Shown here piece by piece: positions 1 to 34,735 of a DNA stretch of 64,000 nucleotides. Both the position numbers and the translations under genes were made by a program. The notes below the pieces were generated by a model, which worked only from the letters and a program-made list of their open reading frames with translations, was not told the DNA's origin and did not search any database. Location of the stretch: the NCBI GenBank assembly GCA_021838785.1, contig JAKCCV010000005.1, positions 1 to 64,000 of the forward strand. Direction: 5' to 3'. This DNA comes from Acidobacteriota bacterium (GTDB lineage Bacteria > Acidobacteriota > Terriglobia > UBA7540). Within the stretch, counting starts at the first letter, position 1, and the number at the start of each line of letters is the position of its first letter.

Positions 1-495
1 CCGGCTCTTCGCCTCGCAGCCGCTCCTGCGCGTTCGCCGTGCGCTTATAGAGATTCTTCCAGTCCACGTAGAGCGCCTGCGGCACCCCGTAGCGCTCGAT
101 CCACGCCCGCAACGCCCCCGCCGCCGCTCCCGACTCCATAAACCCACTTCCAGCATCCACCGCCGCAGCGTCTCGGCCTCCACCGCCAGCCCCTCCTCCT
201 TCGCCAACTGCTCGGCGGCCAACGTCGGCCCCAGCCGCTCCCCCACCGCCCCACTGTACTTCTCGCGCACTCGCCGCAGCACCTGGCCGCGGAACTCCTC
301 CGCGTACGCACGATGCGACCGCCGCCCCGCGCTGCGATGCTGAAGCCCTTTCGCTCCTTCTTCCCGATACCGCCTCCATCGCCGCTTCGCCTGCCGGTAG
401 CCAACCCCCATCAGCTTCCCGGCGTCTACTAACCGAAACTCATGGCCCTTGACCCGAGCCAGCACTTCCACGCGCCTCAATTCCCCTTCACTCAT
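1..495 (-). pseudogene. Truncated ISNCY/integrase-type transposase
   Basis: Reading leftward from an ATG at 495 there is an N-terminal DNA-binding region (residues start MSEGELRRVEVLARVKG, then a basic helix-turn-helix segment with GYRQAKRRWRRYREEG). Near position 120-130 the frame breaks, and the integrase core resumes in another frame with RAWIERYGVPQALYVDWKNL before the window ends. In intact relatives the early catalytic core lies between these blocks, so part of the DDE domain is missing. The gene is therefore decayed as well as cut by the window edge. Family assignment rests on the characteristic GVPQALYVDWKNLYKR block. It is the first of four transposase remnants packed into 3 kb. Confidence 0.7.
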
Positions 496-537
496 CCCCG
501 TTCTCCCCACTCGAACCTCCTCTCAGAGGTTCCATTA

Positions 538-571
538 GGGGACATTTTTAACGAGCACAAAAGGGGACATT
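538..571. repeat. Short direct repeats at a transposon end
   Basis: GGGGACATT occurs at 538-546 and again at 563-571, just upstream of the start of the truncated transposase. The spacing and position fit repeated transposase-binding sites in the terminal region of an insertion sequence. Where the element ends cannot be fixed from this window alone. Confidence 0.5.
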
Positions 572-623
572 ATCATCGAGGTACAACAGGATGCTGGGAA
601 TCGAGGATGGAGCATAGACTCCT

Positions 624-736
624 CCCTGCTGGCCGCGGGCCAGGGAATGGGGTACGTTGAACGAGGCGGCTTCCACCGTTTGCTGGATGAAGCTCTGACC
701 ATGGGGACGCAAGGTCCCGCGTCATGAGCGGGCCTT
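624..736. other. Structured non-coding end of an IS110-family element
   Basis: The gap between the transposon end at 571 and the stop of the IS110-family transposase at 786 has no credible gene but folds strongly. One hairpin spans 624-645 (CTGGCC-GCG-GGCCAG core). A second spans 711-736, with a 9-bp stem AAGG(T)CCCGC / GCGGGCCTT and one bulged T. IS110/IS1111 elements encode a structured guide (bridge) RNA in a non-coding end, on the 3' side of the transposase in IS1111-type elements. Assigning that role here is inference from position and folding potential only. Confidence 0.35.
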
Positions 737-785
737 CACAGTCCTTAAAACAAAGTCCAATCCAGGTGGAAGATCCGAGCATTAT

Positions 786-2072
786 CTACGAGGTCGAAAT
801 CGCCTCGACGGCCCGCAGCGAAGGGATTCTTCCGCCTGGCATCGTCGCTTCCGGGAAGCGACGATAATCGGTTCCGGTTTTGATGACCGCATAAACGACC
901 CGAGCCATCTTGGCGGCCACAGCGGTGTACGCCTTGCGCCGCAGGTCGGGGTTCAGCGGATCGCGCCGGATATAGTTCTGAAACTTTTGGCAGAAGCTGT
1001 TCTGTCGGGCGCGCACGGCGATAGTTCCAGCCATCCAGAAGGCGTAGCGGAGGCGGGCATTGCCACGCTTGGAGAGCCGGGTCGTCCCACGAAACTGCCC
1101 GGACGGCTCGGTCGACAGATTCAAGCCGCAGTACTTAAGGAACTTCTGGTAATGGCTGAAGCGGCGGAGATCACCCGCCTCGGCCAGGATGATCAGGGCG
1201 AGGATGGGGCCAATGCCGGGAATGGTCTGGAGCCGCCGGAAATCGGCATGATCGGACAGGCGCGCCACGGCCTGCTCCTCCAACTCCTGCCGCACCTGGC
1301 CCAGATGCAGGTATTCGTTGAGAACAAGCCGGAACATGCGGATCGCTTCTGAATCTTCCGCCACGGCCAGGCCAATACTGTTCTGCGCCGCCTGGTAGAA
1401 ATCGGTCAGCCAGCGTGTCTTGTCGATCTTTTGTCCAGGCAGCCGGCGAGTTGCCTGAAGGAAATTCTCCAAGGAGTATTTGGATACCGCCGCCGGACAG
1501 GGCACGAGCAACAGGAGCTGCGTCCATCACTCGGCGCGGGGGGTGTGCAAATAACGCTCGGCCTCCGGGAAGTAGAGCGGCAGGTAATGGGTTACAATGC
1601 TGTGGTAGAGGCGAACCTTCCCCAGGGAGATCTGCTGGTAGGTGTTCGCCAGTTCCTGCAAGTCGTTGGAGTGATTCTCGAGAGGGTCGTAATAGACCTG
1701 GGTGGTCCCCGCCTTGAGCAAATGGAGGATAACCTGGGCGTCCTTGGGGTCGTTCTTGTCCCAGGAGTTGAACAGGGCGTCGCGAGTGCGGGCGACGGCG
1801 ATGGAAGAGACCAGGCAGGGGTCAAGGCCCTGGGCGAGAAGGAAGTGGGCCAAAGGGCGGTGGTAGTCGCCCGTGGCTTCGAAGGCGATGCGGCAAGTAC
1901 AGCCGCTGCCGGCAAGGAAGGTGGCAAGCTTGGTGAAGTCCCCTAGGGTGTTAGCCATGCGGAAATGGCGACGACGCCCGTTGGGAAACTCGACGAGCAC
2001 TTGGTTGTGAACCTTGGCGATGTCGATGGCTACCCACATCGTAGAGCTCGTGGTAGAAGATGGTCGGGTCAT
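786..2072 (-). pseudogene. IS110-family (DEDD) transposase split by one in-frame TGA
   Basis: The start is ATG 2072, chosen because AAAGGAGG lies about 10 nt upstream. The first 181 residues form the RuvC-like DEDD domain: an early Asp in MWVAIDIAKVHNQ, the Glu in AFEATGDYH and the Asp pair in WDKNDPKDAQ. A TGA at 1527-1529 follows ...HTPRAE. Translation in the same frame then continues as WTQLLLLVPCPAA into the C-terminal Transposase_20 domain, with the helix-hairpin-helix-like segment TIPGIGPILALIILAEAG, to the stop at 786. Without the TGA the protein would be about 428 residues, normal for the family. Relatives usually carry Trp in this region, so TGG to TGA is the likely change. The element is probably immobile unless the TGA is read through. 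Confidence 0.85.
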
Positions 2073-2172
2073 GGCTGGCAGAACCTCCTTTGGAATGAGT
2101 GGGGGAAAACCCATTCTATGGAAGCTTCTGTCCAGCTGTGACTCAACCCCGAGGGGCTTCTAACGAAGATGA

Positions 2173-2613
2173 AGGTACTACGGGCCGCAGTTCATCGCCC
2201 GCGACTTCAAGGAGTTCATACGGCTCTGCGGCATGACGCACGTGCGGACGTCGCCGTTTTATCCGCAATCGAACGGCAAGATCGAACGCTGGCACCGCTC
2301 GCTGAAGGGCGAATGTCGGCGTCCGGGCGAGCCGGGATCGGTCGAGGAGGCGCGGAACTTGTTGGCGAGCTACGGGGACCACTACCATCGCGTGCGGTTG
2401 CCCTCGGCGATCGGCTACGTCGCGCCGCTCGATAGGCTGGAAGGGCGGGCGGAGGCGATCTGGGCCGAGCGCGATCGCAAGCTGGAAGAGGCGCGATGGA
2501 AGCGCCAGCTTCGCCGTCAGGAAGCTTCACGGAATTATTTGCTCGAGCCGCTGGCCCTCGCTGGCCCCGAGCCGATTGGGGCTGGCGAAGCGCCGGCGGC
2601 AGGATTACACTGA
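2173..2613 (+). pseudogene. C-terminal fragment of an IS3-like transposase (integrase core)
   Basis: Translation from 2176 gives YYGPQFIARDFKEFIRLCGM, then HVRTSPFYPQSNGKIERWH, the end of an rve integrase core. The Glu in GKIERW is the last residue of the DDE triad. The fragment continues through an NSxxRLHSAIGY-like block (HRVRLPSAIGYVAP) and a charged coiled C-terminus to TGA at 2613. No start codon or first catalytic Asp is present: a TGA stands at 2170, where sequence resembling an IS110 end gives way to this fragment. It is a 5'-truncated remnant, probably cut by the IS110 insertion or a deletion. Confidence 0.75.
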
Positions 2614-2881
2614 ACGCGCCGGGTGAAACGGAAGCCGGCAATGCTGGAGAGCAACCGCGCCCAGGGATAACCCGGTGGGCTCATCGCCTCGATGAGGTCG
2701 GGAGCGTTCGATTTTGCGCAAGCGGAATCCACGTTCCCGCTCCCAATGTTGTTGCCTGGACCTCATCGAACGATAGACCCCGATGCCTTGAAAACTCCCG
2801 CCCCGATGAAATCGGGACGGAACTCTATAGCGGTCGAAAACGCACGACATTCCATTTCCGGCTGAACCAGGACATACCCCT
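2614..2881. other. Gene-free stretch between transposase remnants
   Basis: No reading frame with recognisable protein features was found. A small hairpin-like TCCCG...CGGGA lies near 2800-2820. The stretch looks like decayed mobile-element sequence joining two transposase fragments. Confidence 0.4.
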
Positions 2882-3061
2882 ACCGAGGAGTTCTATGAGG
2901 TCACGCCCTTCTCACTCCCCCTCGCCCAACTCAACCGCGAACTCCTGGCCTGGGAACGAATCTACAACACCGTCCGTCCTCACCAAGCCCTCGGCTACCT
3001 CACCCCCCTGGAGTTTCTCGCTCAATCCTCATCTCAAAGAAAGGACCTCCTGTGTCGCTAA
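2882..3061 (+). pseudogene. Second integrase-type transposase fragment (C-terminal 59 residues)
   Basis: Without a start codon, the frame from 2882 reads TEEFYEVTPFSLPLAQLNRE, then LLAWERIYNTVRPHQALGYL, TPLEFL, and stops at TAA 3059-3061. The block VRPHQALGYLTPLEFL is the hallmark C-terminus of integrase-core transposases such as IS481-type elements. It belongs to a different element from the fragment at 2173-2613, because both are C-terminal ends. It is a remnant only. Confidence 0.7.
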
Positions 3062-3098
3062 TCTACTGGACGAGTACAAAGGGTAGGCGAGGGAAGCA

Positions 3099-3265
3099 GG
3101 TTAGTGTTAAGCTGGCTGGACAAACGTCATGGCCGAACGGAACCTCCTATCAGAGGTCCTGAAGCTTTTCGCCGGCAGTTCCACCGACGCTTTCGATTGC
3201 GGGAACTCATGACCGGCCTGCGGCTGCGCTCGTGTCAAGTGCGGGAGCTGCGGCGCGCGCTACGG
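3099..3265 (+). pseudogene. Broken duplicate of the rnr 5' end
   Basis: This stretch matches 5250-5417, the last 30 bp of the rnr leader plus the first 46 codons of rnr, at high identity. The match includes the leader GTTAGTGTTAAGCTGGCTGG and the block coding for FRLRELMTGLRLRS. One T is missing in the run before CGCCGGCAG, so the copy beginning at ATG 3129 shifts frame and stops after 28 residues at an early TGA. Similarity ends near 3265, with a faint echo (GGACTTGCAGCTCG) further on. The intact copy lies 2.15 kb downstream, beyond two minus-strand secreted-protein genes. Confidence 0.85.
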
Positions 3266-3409
3266 ACATGCACCCTCGGCTATTGAGTCAGGTTTTACCG
3301 GACTTGCAGCTCGTAAGGAACTACGGCGGCAATTCGTGAGGGTGTCCCACGCTTTGTGCCCCGAATGATAAAGGCCCCATCGGCGAGGCCTGACCCGCGA
3401 GTCGAGCGG

Positions 3410-4588
3410 TCATTGCGGGACAAATGTTTGTACCTCGAGGTTCCCATGTTTGGACAGGTTGAGGAAGAGGAACCCGCCTTGCGGGTCTGCGCAGGTCGGC
3501 ATGCCGGCGCCCGGCGGGATCTTGTAAACTCCGGTAACGGCGCCTGTTTCGAGATCGGCCAGTGCCAGCATAAGCGGAGACGCTCCTAGTTGTTTCGACG
3601 GGGTTGTGGTTCCGAACTCAATGAGTACCTGACCGTTCTCCGTCAGGCTCGCTTGCATCGGCCACATCCCCGGTCGGGGCGGGGTGATGGTGACCCTACG
3701 GAACACGGAGCCGCCGGATGAGACCGCATAGAGCCGCACCGGGTCGCTCGCCCGATAAAGATAAACCGTCCCGTCAATCGAACCGAGCATCCCGCCTCGC
3801 TCGATTTCTATCATCCATTCACCCCCTTTTCTGCCTTCCTTCATCCAATTTTTGTCCGGAGGGCCGACGTCGTCGGCGAGCTTCACCGACGTTTCAAACA
3901 CGCCGCTGCGGTTGAAGACCCACGTGAACGGCTTGGTGGGCACCAGCATTTTGGACACGCCGGGCGTGCCCGAAACCAGATTGCCGGTCAGAAGAATGCT
4001 GCCATCCAGGAACGCCGCGAATCCGAACGCCTCCAAGGACGGCCCCGGCGGCGGTTCAAGTTTCGTGACGGAGTCCAAAGTCCCGTCGTCTTTGTACTGT
4101 ACGACCAACACATGGGGAGGGTTCGGACCCGCGTGGTAGCCCAGGGCGTGCTTGTACGCTATGATGAGGGCGTAAACAGCGCCGCGCGGGTCAACGTAGA
4201 AACCCGGTCGGGCATACCCTCGGTAGCCCTCCGGCGAGGCGGGGGCGAACTCGGTTAGCCTTCCGGAATCCGGTTTAATTCTTGTGATTGCCAAGCCGTT
4301 TAGGCCCTGCCGGGCCGCGCTCTCGGCAGCCTGAAGGTTGGCAGCGCCCCAAATGTATATGTTCCCCTCGGCGTCGCACCGGGCCGGTTCAATGATGGCC
4401 GGCCAGCCGTGGATGGGCAATGGAGTCTTCTCCCCGGGATAGAGCTGGCTTGGGACGGGCGCGGTTGGCTGCCCCTTCTTCCCTTTGCTTGCGGCTGCGG
4501 CTTTGGGATGCGAGAAAGCCATCACCGCCAGCGCCAACAGCGGGGCCATGCGAACCCACGCGAACCGTTTTACGCCTCGCACGTCCAT
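3410..4588 (-). CDS. Secreted protein, probably beta-propeller-like, function unknown
   Basis: 392 residues from ATG 4588, chosen over an ATG at 4633 because GGAGGG stands 8 nt upstream. The N-terminus (MDVRGVKRFAWVRMAPLLAL, then AVMAFSHPKAAAASK) is a signal peptide, so the product is exported. The body contains recurring short beta-type segments with motifs such as CDAEGNIYIWG, VDPRGAVYAL, SIDGTVYLY and DPQGGFLFL, the D-x-x-G-x-(I/V)-(Y/W) rhythm of NHL or six-bladed propeller repeats. No catalytic motif was recognised. The gene lies 31 bp after the frameshifted end (4620) of the small upstream Cys-rich gene, so the two were probably co-transcribed. The assignment to a propeller fold is inference. 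Confidence 0.65.
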   Translation of the reverse strand: MDVRGVKRFAWVRMAPLLALAVMAFSHPKAAAASKGKKGQPTAPVPSQLYPGEKTPLPIHGWPAIIEPARCDAEGNIYIWGAANLQAAESAARQGLNGLAITRIKPDSGRLTEFAPASPEGYRGYARPGFYVDPRGAVYALIIAYKHALGYHAGPNPPHVLVVQYKDDGTLDSVTKLEPPPGPSLEAFGFAAFLDGSILLTGNLVSGTPGVSKMLVPTKPFTWVFNRSGVFETSVKLADDVGPPDKNWMKEGRKGGEWMIEIERGGMLGSIDGTVYLYRASDPVRLYAVSSGGSVFRRVTITPPRPGMWPMQASLTENGQVLIEFGTTTPSKQLGASPLMLALADLETGAVTGVYKIPPGAGMPTCADPQGGFLFLNLSKHGNLEVQTFVPQ

Positions 4589-4638
4589 GGCATGAGCCCT
4601 CCATTCCGCCCCGGCTGGGCTAGACCCGAACATGGAGA

Positions 4639-4989
4639 CTAACGACGGAATAATTCCCGTCGCACCCTCGGACCCAGACGTACACTCGAGTGCTCAGCGC
4701 GGCCGTCGCCGCGTGCTTGGCTGGGACGCCCTCGTAGCAATATCCGTCGTAGGTCCAGTTCAGAACCGCACTGGACGCACTCGCTTATGTAGTCCTCGTT
4801 ATATGTGCCGTAGCTTCCGTACGTCGGGACTGTAATCACGCAGCCACCATTGCATACCGACAGCGTTTCAGATGACGTCGCGCACGTCTCATTGTAACAC
4901 CCCTGCTGCGCCCTGGCCCGCCGGAGCGCCCCCGCCAGTCCCAGCACAGCCAGGGCCACGGCCCACAGAATTGGTTTGGGTATCGCCAT
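4639..4989 (-). CDS. Small secreted Cys-rich protein, probably frameshifted at its C-terminus
   Basis: ATG 4989 has AGGAGGTG 8 nt upstream. The N-terminus MAIPKPILWAVALAVLGLAG is a signal peptide, followed by a Cys-rich segment with GCYNETCATSS, SVCNGGCVI and SECVQCGS. As read, the protein is 116 residues and ends in an Arg-rich tail unlike secreted proteins. From about 4775 a different frame gives a much more protein-like end (NWTYDGYCYEGVPAKHAATA, then RVYVWVRGCDGNYSVV) and stops at TAG 4620-4622, just ahead of the next gene. A one-base frameshift, real or from sequencing, is the simplest explanation. Function is unknown. Confidence 0.6.
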   Translation of the reverse strand: MAIPKPILWAVALAVLGLAGALRRARAQQGCYNETCATSSETLSVCNGGCVITVPTYGSYGTYNEDYISECVQCGSELDLRRILLRGRPSQARGDGRAEHSSVRLGPRVRRELFRR

Positions 4990-5010
4990 CGTTGCCACAC
5001 CTCCTCTTGC

Positions 5011-5049
5011 CTTGACACGAAGCTTACCCCCCCAAGCTCTCGTGTCAAG
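5011..5049 (+). terminator. Long inverted repeat followed by T7
   Basis: CTTGACACGAAGCTT (5011-5025) and AAGCTCTCGTGTCAAG (5034-5049) form a 15-bp stem with one bulged base around an ACCCCCCC loop. TGCTTTTTTTC follows on the plus strand. This is the form of a Rho-independent terminator for rightward transcription, and would stop read-through into rnr. Read on the minus strand it sits in the leader of the small Cys-rich gene, just upstream of its ribosome binding site, so it may also fold in that mRNA. Confidence 0.55.
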
Positions 5050-5279
5050 TGCTTTTTTTCTTGGCATGTCGTGCCGTGCATATCGCGGGGATGTATCACG
5101 GTATGGGCTGTGGACATAGGCTGCCGACTTGAAAATTCGGCACGATAGATTTCTTTGAGCCGCAAGCCGGGCAAACGCTCGCCCTTGAGACGGTTTTCTC
5201 TCCGCAAACCGTCGGCGTCTGCCTTGCAGATGATTGGCCGCCGCGTTGCGGTTAGTGTTAAGCTGGCTGGGCAAACGTC

Positions 5280-7724
5280 ATGGCTGAACAGACCCTCCCA
5301 TCAGAAGTCCTGAAGCTTTTTCGTCAGCAGCCCCACCGACGCTTTCGATTGCGGGAACTCATGACCGGCCTGCGGCTCCGCTCGAGTCAAGTGCGGGAAC
5401 TGCGGCGCGCGCTACGGGAACTTGCAGCTGCTCGGCAAATTATCCTTTTACGAGACCACCAATTCCAACTTGCCTCCGCACCGAGGGTCGGCTTAGCGAG
5501 GGACAAGGCCAAAGGAAACGCAGCGAACGTTTCCTCCGCCAAGAATTTGGTGACCGGCAGGCTGATTGGGCATCGCGACGGTTACGGCTTTGTGGTGCCG
5601 GATGCGCCAATGGAGGGAACAGACCAAGACATCTTTGTACCCCGCGACGGCGTGGGATCGGCCTTGCACGGCGACCGCGTTGAGGTTCAGGTGGTGCGGA
5701 CGCGGCCGGATTGGCGCATGCGGCGAAAGGGCGGCGAGCCGCCCAAGCTGCGCGTCGAGGGGCGCGTGGTGAGGGTGCTGGAGCGTGCGCAAAAAACCGT
5801 GGTGGGCGAATTTCGCGCTGGGCCGCGCGGCAACTACGTTCTTCCTTACGACCGGCGAATTCCACACGAGATTTTGATTCCAAGCGGGCAGGAAATTCCG
5901 CCCAACGGCGGCGCCGGTGCCGCGCGCGACCGTCAATTTGGCGGGGAATCCGAAGGGCGACGCCGCCCGACGATGGAAACTCCGGAGGCGCGAGCGCTCG
6001 ACCACATGATGGTGGATGTCGAAATCACTCGCTTTCCAACGCCCAGCGCCCCCGGACGCGGCCGAGTGATTGAGATTCTGGGGCGACGCGACGATTTCGG
6101 CGTGGATGTTGAAATCATCATCCGCAAATACCATTTGCCTCACCGTTTTCCGCCGGAGGTCCTACGCGAGGCCGAAGCCGCGCCCCAGACGCTCGATGAG
6201 CTTCAACGCCAGGGACGCCGGGACTTTCGCCAGCTTCCCATCGTGACGATTGACGGTGAAACCGCAAAAGATTTTGACGATGCCGTGTACGTGGAGCGGC
6301 GCGGACCAGGCTACCTTCTCCACGTCCACATTGCCGACGTGGCGCATTATGTGCGGCCGGGCACGGCGCTCGATCGCGAAGCGCGCTTGCGCGGCACGTC
6401 CGTCTATTTTCCGGATCGCGCCGTTCCCATGTTGCCGCTCGAGCTTTCGAACGGCATTTGCAGCCTCAACCCGCATGAGGACCGGTTGGTCATGTCCGTG
6501 CTGATGGAGATGGACTCGCAGGGCCGGGTGGTGGAAGCCGAACTCGTGCCGGGCCTCATCCACAGCGCCGAGCGCATGACCTACACCGCGGTGCGAGACG
6601 TGTTGGCGGGCCAACCGGCCGCGCTTGAGCGCTACGCTGCGCTGGCGGAAAATTTCCGGTGCATGGCGGAGCTGGCTCAAATCCTCAATCGCCGGCGCTA
6701 CGAGCGCGGCTCGATTGATTTTGATTTGCCGGAGCCTGAAATTGAATTTGACCGCCTGGGCCGCATGATTGGCGTGACGCGCTCGGAGCGGAACATGGCG
6801 CACCGCATCATCGAGGAATTCATGCTGGCCGCCAACGAATGCGTGGCCGGCACCTTGGAAAGCTTGGCTGTGCCCACTCTCTATCGCATCCATGAGAAGC
6901 CGGACCCTCAAAAGGTGCTGGAATTTGAAGAAATTGCGGCGACGTTCGGGTACTCGTTGGGCATCAAGGCTCCTTCCGTCGAGCGGCATCGCGTTCGCGC
7001 GCACGAGGAGCGAGAGCGGCACCCGCGTTTTCACGAGCAATTGCGAAAAGAAGAACTGGAGATCACGCCGCGTCACTATCAACGTTTGACAAAGCGGCTG
7101 GAGGGCAAGCCGGAAGAAAGGATTCTCTCCTACCTGATGCTGCGCTCGCTGAAGCAAGCACGATATTCGGAGGAAAACGAGGGGCACTTTGCGCTCGCCG
7201 CACCCACCTACACGCACTTCACCTCGCCGATCCGCCGCTACCCGGACCTGATTGTGCATCGAATTCTGAAAGCCGTTTTGGAGCAGCAAGGCGGCCGAGC
7301 GCAATATCGGCCAGCGGCCAAAGCCTCGACGCCGCGCCGCGCCCGCCCGTCACCCATCAGCTTGGAGGAGCTTCATGCCTTGGCGGTTGAGACCTCGGAA
7401 GCCGAGCGCCGCGCTCAAGACGCCGAGCGGGAATTGCTGGAACTGAAGAAAATCGCCTTTATGAGCGAACGGCTTGGAGACGAGTTTGACGGCCTTATCA
7501 TCTCCCTCATCAAGCAAGGATTTTTCGTGGAGTTGACGGATTTGTTTGTGGAGGGTTTCGTCCCCTTGGATAGCCTGGGCGACCGCTACGTTTACCGCGA
7601 AAGCCTCCGGGCCATCGTCGGCAAAGATTCCAAGCGGGCGTTCCGATTAGGGCAGCGCGTTCGCGTGCGGTTGGACCGCATTGATCGAATGGGAAACAAA
7701 TTGGAATTTTCAGTTGTGAAGTGA
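5280..7724 (+). CDS. rnr: Ribonuclease R
   Basis: 814 residues, full family length. An N-terminal winged-helix region lies at residues 8-65 (FRQQPHRRFRLRELMTGLRL). A cold-shock RNA-binding domain is at about 83-130 (GYGFVVPDAPMEG, DIFVPRD). The RNB catalytic domain follows, with the metal-binding Asp cluster in TIDGETAKDFDDAVY near residue 325-337. A C-terminal S1 domain spans about 735-812 (FDGLIISLIKQGFFVEL). The enzyme degrades structured RNA 3' to 5' in the cytoplasm. No strong Shine-Dalgarno is visible before ATG 5280. The leader and first 46 codons also exist as a broken copy at 3099-3265. A hairpin with a T-run at 5011-5049 insulates the gene from upstream transcription. Confidence 0.95.
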   Translation: MAEQTLPSEVLKLFRQQPHRRFRLRELMTGLRLRSSQVRELRRALRELAAARQIILLRDHQFQLASAPRVGLARDKAKGNAANVSSAKNLVTGRLIGHRDGYGFVVPDAPMEGTDQDIFVPRDGVGSALHGDRVEVQVVRTRPDWRMRRKGGEPPKLRVEGRVVRVLERAQKTVVGEFRAGPRGNYVLPYDRRIPHEILIPSGQEIPPNGGAGAARDRQFGGESEGRRRPTMETPEARALDHMMVDVEITRFPTPSAPGRGRVIEILGRRDDFGVDVEIIIRKYHLPHRFPPEVLREAEAAPQTLDELQRQGRRDFRQLPIVTIDGETAKDFDDAVYVERRGPGYLLHVHIADVAHYVRPGTALDREARLRGTSVYFPDRAVPMLPLELSNGICSLNPHEDRLVMSVLMEMDSQGRVVEAELVPGLIHSAERMTYTAVRDVLAGQPAALERYAALAENFRCMAELAQILNRRRYERGSIDFDLPEPEIEFDRLGRMIGVTRSERNMAHRIIEEFMLAANECVAGTLESLAVPTLYRIHEKPDPQKVLEFEEIAATFGYSLGIKAPSVERHRVRAHEERERHPRFHEQLRKEELEITPRHYQRLTKRLEGKPEERILSYLMLRSLKQARYSEENEGHFALAAPTYTHFTSPIRRYPDLIVHRILKAVLEQQGGRAQYRPAAKASTPRRARPSPISLEELHALAVETSEAERRAQDAERELLELKKIAFMSERLGDEFDGLIISLIKQGFFVELTDLFVEGFVPLDSLGDRYVYRESLRAIVGKDSKRAFRLGQRVRVRLDRIDRMGNKLEFSVVK

Positions 7725-33184: not shown

Positions 33185-33778
33185 GCTCCTATTGCGAGGA
33201 AGGGGAAAGCCGATGAGGGCGGGCGCGCATTTTCACTTCGGCCCCGGCAAGTGAGCGCCCGCCCTCCCTGCGCCAACCCCACAACCCATACCGTAAGCAC
33301 GCGCGTTCTTCGCGCCCCTCTTACCCACCCCCGCCCCAAACCTATCGAGCGCAGACCTGCCCGCGCTTTGCACCCATAGGCCGTTCTCGACAACGACGCG
33401 AGCCATTGGCGATTCCAAGATCCAGTGACGCCTGAGACTCTAGCACGGTCTGTGCGGTGCCGCCGGTCTATGACCGGCCGCTTTTGCTTCGTGGGCTGCT
33501 ACAATTTCCCTCGAAGGTAGCCGGCAGCACAGAGGTTACGCGTCGCAACCGCCGCGGTTCGAGCCGGTGCCCCGCCGGAAAGAACCGCAGAGTTTCACAC
33601 TCCGCAACCCCGCGCCACGCGCCGGGCCGTTCAACCCGTGCGACCTTGACCTCATCGCCGTCCATTCGTTGCCAACGCCTGGTTCCCGCGGCCAACGCTA
33701 CAAACGCCGCAGGCGAGCGCCAAAAACGCGCGCCTCTGGGCTACCGGCCATCAGGCGCGAGTGGGAACGCGGCGGGGT
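33185..33778. other. 594-bp intergenic region, no gene seen
   Basis: Open frames here have no protein-like features. A perfect hairpin GCCGGTC-TAT-GACCGGC lies at 33462-33478, followed by CGCTTTTGC, and could be a weak terminator after the XRE gene. One copy of a 39-bp repeat lies at 33706-33744. Confidence 0.5.
33706..33744. repeat. 39-bp direct repeat, copy 1
   Basis: It starts GCCGCAGGCGAGCGCCAAAA and ends GGGCTAC; it matches 34697-34735 in the same orientation with a few mismatches. Its inverted-repeat ends have decayed compared with copy 2. It lies 34 bp past the stop of the isomerase-like gene at 33779. Confidence 0.6.
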
Positions 33779-34615
33779 TTAGAGGCGGACGGTCTTGAGG
33801 TATCTGACATCGGCGGCGATATTCTGCGGCGCCTCGCGGCTTTCATCTTCCACGAAGTAGTGCTGCACACCGATCTTCACGGCCTCGCGCAGAATGGCCC
33901 GCAGGTGGAGAATGCCTTGCCCCAGCACGACGCAGGCTTCGTCCGACGTCCCGACATTGAAGTTCCCGATCGGCGTGCCGCGCCGCATGTCCTTCAGGTG
34001 CATCAGGCGGAACAGTTTTGGATACCGCTTCAGGTAAGCCACCGGATCCTGCCCGCCGCGTTTGTACCAGAAGATGTCCATCTCCTGCACAACATCGGGC
34101 CGCAGCAGGGCGATCAAACGGTCCAGGCCGGGGCGTCCGCCAATGGGGTAAAAGGCGTTCACCTCGGCGTGGAAGGCGAAGCGCAATCCGTGGCGTTCGG
34201 CCTGCGCGGCGAAATGATTGAAGCCGCGCGCCGCGCGCCGCACGTCGGCCATCGTCAAGTGCCGCCCCGCTTGCGGCAGCTCAGGGCAGACCAGGTATTG
34301 CGCGCTCAGGACTTTGGCTTCCCGGATGGTCGTCGGCATGTCGTGGAGATACCGGTCGTAAGCGTTATGCATCCCAATGCACGGCAGCCCGGCGGAATCT
34401 AAAGCGCGGCGGAACTCAAGCGGCGTCAGGCCGTAAAAGCCCGCCATCTCAATCTCCTGGTACCCCATCCGCTTCACGCGCTCAAGCCACATCTTCACGT
34501 GCCCGGGCATTTGATGGCGCAGGCTGTAAAGTTGCAGCCCATACGGTCCGGGAAAATGCTCGCCGGGATCTTCTGTTGAGCCGAGCAGCCAGGTTGCCAG
34601 GTTTCCAAACGACAT
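33779..34615 (-). CDS. Sugar phosphate isomerase/epimerase-like TIM-barrel protein
   Basis: 278 residues from ATG 34615, with GGGAGG 7 nt upstream. AP-endonuclease-2/xylose-isomerase-like barrel features are present: YGLQLYSLRHQMPGHVKMWL, QEIEMAGFYGLTPLEFRRAL, GMHNAYDRYL, RFAFHAEVNAFYPIGG, VVQEMDIFWYKRGG and LMHLKDMRRGT. Metal ligands are likely the Glu and His in these strands (HAE, EMD, HLK) and the late Glu in YFVEDES. It sits in a minus-strand run with an epimerase, a zinc dehydrogenase and a sugar transporter, which suggests carbohydrate breakdown. The exact substrate cannot be read. Confidence 0.82.
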   Translation of the reverse strand: MSFGNLATWLLGSTEDPGEHFPGPYGLQLYSLRHQMPGHVKMWLERVKRMGYQEIEMAGFYGLTPLEFRRALDSAGLPCIGMHNAYDRYLHDMPTTIREAKVLSAQYLVCPELPQAGRHLTMADVRRAARGFNHFAAQAERHGLRFAFHAEVNAFYPIGGRPGLDRLIALLRPDVVQEMDIFWYKRGGQDPVAYLKRYPKLFRLMHLKDMRRGTPIGNFNVGTSDEACVVLGQGILHLRAILREAVKIGVQHYFVEDESREAPQNIAADVRYLKTVRL

Positions 34616-34696
34616 CGTTCGCCTCCCTCGTCGTGATTCGTTGCGCAAGCGTCAGTATAACCCCGACACGCGGTCAGGTCACGCCATCCGGCAAAA

Positions 34697-34735
34697 GCCG
34701 CAGAGGAGCGCCAAAGACGCGCACCTCTGCGCTAC
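34697..34735. repeat. 39-bp direct repeat, copy 2
   Basis: GCCGCAGAGGAGCGCCAAAG... with inverted ends CGCAGAGG / CCTCTGCG, matching 33706-33744. It lies 12 bp past the stop of the transporter gene at 34747, so both copies sit just downstream of a stop codon in a tightly packed operon. Confidence 0.6.

Follow-up and report, generated by a model that had tools for sequence, protein, structure and literature searches.

A partial rnr duplication around two secreted-protein genes in an acidobacterial genome, and copied gene ends at other loci of the same cassette family

Integrative elements that target dusA, and SXT in prfC, insert where a housekeeping gene begins, at its 5′ end; the gene gains a new promoter and start, and its old start ends up displaced on the far side (PMC8409611). 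For Vibrio T6SS modules, displacement by homology-facilitated illegitimate recombination has been proposed, in which foreign genes are added at a homologous anchor and the displaced remnant is kept downstream (PMC5361080). In addition, transformation can produce partial duplications (PMC3784515). The locus described here, a partial duplication of rnr around two secreted-protein genes, resembles the dusA and SXT cases in its outcome, as a new promoter and start stand in front of a housekeeping gene and the old start is displaced. It is unlike them in that its 2 kb contain no integrase or other recombination gene, and in that the related cassettes appear to enter many genes, at 5′ and 3′ ends, with long repeats of variable length. 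With the displaced T6SS immunity genes it shares the homologous anchor, the added foreign genes and the remnant kept downstream; those remnants are whole immunity genes in fixed clusters, whereas here the loci are scattered and the remnant is a partial gene end from an unrelated neighbour.

The window (the whole stretch of DNA that was analyzed, 64 kb of the genome hereafter called G000) carries an intact gene for ribonuclease R, rnr (positions 5280–7724, + strand), whose product scores 698.6 bits with the equivalog model TIGR02063 (cut-off 597.85). Its putative core promoter or leader (5250–5279, + strand) and first 46 codons form copy 2 of a direct repeat (5250–5417). Copy 1 (3099–3265, + strand) consists of the same putative core promoter, the start and approximately 46 codons; the two are identical at 154 of 167 aligned columns, with copy 1 one base short. 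A direct-repeat search of the window returned the pair as 3099–3169/5250–5320 (92%) and 3166–3265/5318–5417 (93%). A search of the whole genome (3.42 Mb) returned the match with an E-value of 1.6e-63, so that it is not due to chance, and showed no third copy of the rnr start. Only one more direct repeat with a spacing of 0.3–6 kb is present in the window, at 33701–33744 and 34692–34735 (44 nt, 86%), around a sugar-isomerase-like ORF (33779–34648). The layout there is of the kind seen at the cassette loci discussed below, with a different gene enclosed.

Between the rnr repeats lie only the two secreted-protein genes, both on the − strand, and no integrase, recombinase or transposase was found among the ORFs there. 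A short tail (3266–3412) runs from copy 1 to the stop of the second cassette gene (3410–4633), an intact ORF of 407 codons for a beta-propeller-like protein. The first cassette gene (approximately 4621–4989) encodes a small Cys-rich protein and is broken, and a promoter-like site (TTGACA-16 nt-TAAGCT) was recognized by its motif at 5012–5048 (− strand). Secretion of both proteins was predicted by eye from their N-terminal sequences. The tail gave no further clear match in the four genomes G000 to G003, and its origin was looked for and not found, as was that of the DNA between the small Cys-rich gene and copy 2. Left of copy 1, comparison with the congener G002 identifies a remnant of the ancestral left flank (3079–3098), preceded by IS debris (1–3078) in which Pfam matches reveal an IS110 transposase in two pieces and integrase-core fragments; the debris has 12 matches in its own genome including itself, and thus 11 elsewhere. 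These analyses bear out what a first-pass annotation of the window had described: a duplication of about 167 bp (leader plus 46 codons), a one-base deletion that breaks the first copy, two secreted-protein genes bracketed by the copies, and an adjoining transposon graveyard.

The same annotation had regarded the rearrangement as recent and possibly transposon-driven, and neither suggestion holds up against the relatives. G002, in which the rnr protein is 94% identical, is collinear with window positions 3082–6104 at 89.8% DNA identity. It shares the one-base deletion, the position at which copy 1 stops and both secreted genes, so the duplication is older than the divergence of the two species. 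The agreement of two separate genomes that are ~10% different also rules out a misassembly. To the left of position 3082 the two genomes diverge, and G002 has a Rid-like gene (the name reflects a sub-threshold NCBIfam match, 50.8 bits versus a cut-off of 106). Its G000 orthologue lies on a different contig (C14:7323–8388), 183 bases from the contig end, followed by what by eye is IS-like DNA. The IS debris in the window stops ~20 bp short of copy 1, and G002 has none at that place; an IS-driven duplication was rejected on this evidence. Since G002 has the Rid-like gene there and the G000 orthologue sits at the end of another contig, the IS debris inserted after the split from G002, beside a pre-existing duplication. 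The displaced Rid-like protein (L083 7609–8289) has a weak PADLOC match to PD-T4-2_B (4.8e-9).

A recent arrival of the secreted genes had also been proposed. Arrival at rnr is plausible, because rnr in G003 and other members of the taxonomic family stands without these genes beside it, but it would have preceded the G000/G002 split. As to a relative with the same arrangement and a functional upstream copy, G002 provides the arrangement and its upstream copy is broken too. The neighbours of rnr differ in nearly every genome of the taxonomic family, including G003, and the G001 contigs break at the critical place; ancestral rnr neighbours or an empty rnr site were not found. No second rnr start was detected upstream at E < 0.7 in 19 loci of the family, several of which have contigs that are short on that side.

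The 30-base leader in the repeat probably represents the core promoter of rnr: 12 of 19 relatives have the extended −10-like element TGnTAnnnT no more than 50 nt from the start of the gene, versus 1.4% of random 50-mers. In the upstream regions of these 19 relatives the element is often very close to the start codon, and for that reason a near-leaderless rnr mRNA is likely in the family.

Synonymous divergence between G000 and G002 is 0.18–0.19 in both rnr and the propeller gene, with dN/dS values of 0.155 and 0.264, respectively, indicating purifying selection on the propeller gene. Copy 1, at 81.9% identity between the two species, is the least conserved part of the block (intergenic DNA 87.2%, tail 89.8%), and is thus unconstrained. 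A functional small gene derived from copy 1 was considered and rejected, with 28 of 155 aligned sites differing between the species and 12 more bases lost in G002. The small Cys-rich gene carries a 14-nt deletion in G000 and an in-frame stop in G002; it has thus been broken independently in the two species (window 4621–4989; L033 1109–1486), and the downstream propeller gene is intact. The similarity between the two rnr copies is unexpectedly high in G000, with 11 changes private to G000 versus 29 to G002 (p = 0.006). In rnr itself, taking G003 as reference, the rates are similar (50 changes in G000, 56 in G002). A later partial conversion between the copies in the G000 lineage would explain this, but the tests gave p = 0.056 for clustering and p = 0.07 for raised copy-1 divergence, and support for such a conversion is weak.

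The product of the 407-codon gene matches no Pfam, NCBIfam or PADLOC family. Its predicted structure is a beta-propeller (pLDDT 79.9), and the nearest solved folds include CylK, NHL and SMP30-like proteins. It is like NHL/SMP30-type propellers in predicted fold and unlike them in that TM-scores remain below 0.5 by query length. A sequence-profile search of solved structures gave, as its best match, a designed propeller (E = 0.0027, 25 positions). PADLOC returned nothing for the gene pair, and a role in defence was rejected on that ground. Relatives of the propeller gene were found in 11 of 39 genomes of the taxonomic family and in 25 of 399 genomes of the class, and at other loci, too, the small Cys-rich gene directly precedes it. 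The two genes in the window are one member of a dispersed two-gene cassette family of secreted proteins in the Terriglobia (Acidobacteriota).

The promoters of these cassettes share a further feature. In cassettes with at least 400 bases upstream, we scored TTGAC boxes that have a run of seven or more identical bases no more than 14 bases downstream. The combination is present at 13 of the 34 cassettes and, for comparison, in 90 of 4000 random kilobases; when the eight loci inspected first are removed, 7 of 26 cassettes have it (p = 2e-6). The window promoter has seven G in its spacer, and nowhere else in the 64 kb does the combination occur; the spacer measures 16 nt in G000 and 14 nt in G002, and 13–19 nt across the cassette family (with the −10 box placed by eye). 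The site at 5012–5048 also lies in a palindrome, TTGACA...GGGGGGG...TGTCAA, so that a TTGACA box is present on both strands. Phase-variable promoters with homopolymeric spacers occur in pathogens such as Neisseria. The cassette promoters are like these in having a single-base run of 6–12 near or between the −35 and −10 boxes; they are unlike them in standing beside an acidobacterial secreted-protein family. Because long single-base runs between the two boxes are so frequent, expression of the cassettes is probably phase-variable. A literature search found no report of phase-variable promoters in Acidobacteria.

Repeats such as those at rnr are found around other cassettes as well. A self-comparison of the first 14 cassette loci detected them at rnr (in G002), at G003:C135 and at G000:C23. 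We then gathered 36 loci, leaving out the weaker class-genome matches; 32 had enough flank on both sides to be scored for a direct repeat between two 1200-base flanks at E ≤ 1e-4. Such repeats bracket 8 of the 32 loci (7 of them independent). Among 1196 random segments of 1200 bases, compared through flanks of equal size, 23 were positive, one of which is itself a cassette locus (Fisher p = 4e-7; p = 3e-6 when G000 and G002 are counted once). When the four loci that prompted the hypothesis are set aside, a repeat is present at 4 of 28 cassette loci (p = 0.003). The repeat is absent at 24 of the 32 loci. As the control consisted of random segments and not of other accessory genes, bracketing by gene ends may not be special to this cassette family.

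At the positive loci the repeats measure 39–396 nt, and at most of these loci they consist of one end, 5′ or 3′, of an adjacent gene: the start of rnr (G000 and G002), the start of a 1082-aa gene with its leader, the ends of a 663-aa gene and a 669-aa gene, the end of a gene that we take to be quinone-oxidoreductase-like (59 nt, 100%), and the end of a presumably permease-like gene (G000:C23; 39 nt, 85%). At G000:C19 it is a 168-nt, mostly intergenic piece together with the end of another gene. The target genes at the seven independent loci are different, which does not fit one fixed attachment site. Inspection by eye of the eight positive loci showed no common terminal sequence beside the cassettes, and with lengths of 39–396 nt the repeats do not resemble the short, fixed target-site duplication next to terminal repeats that a transposon leaves. 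The cassette at the quinone-oxidoreductase-like gene is common to G000, G002 and G003, and only G003, a low-coverage MAG, has the 59-base repeat there; since one of three sharing genomes has it, a repeat may form or vanish after the arrival of the cassette. In G000 (C17, L262), and not in G002 or G003, the cassette beside this gene lacks the first part of the small gene and has ~700 bases of other DNA instead.

An empty site was found at the permease-like locus, G000:C23, where the gene has orthologues in G002, G003 and G001. In G002 and G003, the end of the gene runs directly into DNA that in G000 lies to the right of the right-hand copy, past the cassette (156 nt at 91% in G002; 143 nt at 82.5% in G003). 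G001 is uninformative in this respect, because its DNA downstream of the gene is unrelated. In G000, the copy on the gene body ends unlike the relatives and the right-hand copy keeps the relatives' end. Ten sites differ between the two G000 copies, and the G002-like base is in the left copy at the first five, in the right copy at the next four and in the left again at the last. Three runs or fewer over ten sites have p = 0.048 with all orders counted, and the last site is out of place. The order of variants lends slight support to the notion that the copies retain the trace of a single crossover with DNA in which the gene end had diverged.

As an explanation for these loci as a whole we tentatively favour, at somewhat less than even confidence, entry of the cassette by homologous recombination at a gene end. 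Incoming DNA would consist of the cassette and a copy of the host gene end, and would be joined to the gene end already present by one homologous crossover or by a one-sided event of the same effect. The gene would persist in one intact copy, and the displaced partial end on the far side of the cassette would then decay. At rnr the target would be the 5′ end, with copy 1 as the displaced partial copy and copy 2 as the working start. We infer that the incoming DNA was circular or one-sided and carried a gene end, and that the rnr case has the same origin; no donor DNA or circle was seen. The excess of repeats over random segments, the variety of targets and the empty site speak for this reading; the 24 loci with no repeat and the quinone-oxidoreductase-like locus speak against it. 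Literature searches found no report of a cassette spreading by single crossover with partial gene copies, and nothing relevant on partial duplications.

The same final structure would result if linear DNA were anchored at a gene end on one side and joined by chance on the other, thereby duplicating the gene end. Such homology-facilitated illegitimate recombination fits the varying repeat lengths (39–396 nt) and is similar to the displacement model for the Vibrio T6SS modules (PMC5361080), but the permease sites resemble, if weakly, the reciprocal exchange that a circle and a single crossover predict, and we consider this route possible but rather unlikely. Less probable still is a transposition-like mechanism that makes long target duplications of about 40–400 nt. 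Direct repeats on both sides, varying in length and target, and the existence of an empty site would agree with it, but there is no common end by eye among the eight positive loci, no transposase between the window repeats, and the sites at which the permease copies differ follow an order instead of being intermixed (p = 0.048). That unrelated local accidents, tandem duplications or deletions, befell an old, vertically inherited gene pair is slightly more doubtful again: the 24 of 32 loci with no repeat, and the repeats that differ between orthologous loci, would be expected, but a higher repeat frequency than in random segments would not, nor would the empty site that two relatives show. An integrative element inserted at a gene end is the least probable of these alternatives: the rnr outcome of a new start and a displaced old one does match the dusA- and prfC-targeting kind (PMC8409611), but no integrase lies between the window repeats and the cassettes use many unrelated target genes instead of a single site, which places the rnr case outside this type.

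Entry by homologous recombination at a gene end may be taken one step further, to a mobile cassette that has no recombinase of its own. Phase-variable secreted pairs would be excised as circles when the two gene-end copies recombine, and one crossover would insert them at the corresponding gene of another genome, sometimes with capture of a new gene end. We regard this extension as speculative and on balance improbable; if true, it would amount to a recombinase-free dispersal route for contingency genes, for which host recombination alone is needed.

More generally, the secreted-gene cassettes form a family that recurs between copied gene ends, often with slippery promoters. If entry by homologous recombination at gene ends is right, a secreted-protein family of soil Acidobacteriota would spread by copying pieces of host genes, probably switched by slippage. 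It would also account for one type of partial gene duplication, and gene-end copies around a cassette with a homopolymer promoter would be a signature that can be searched for in other genomes.
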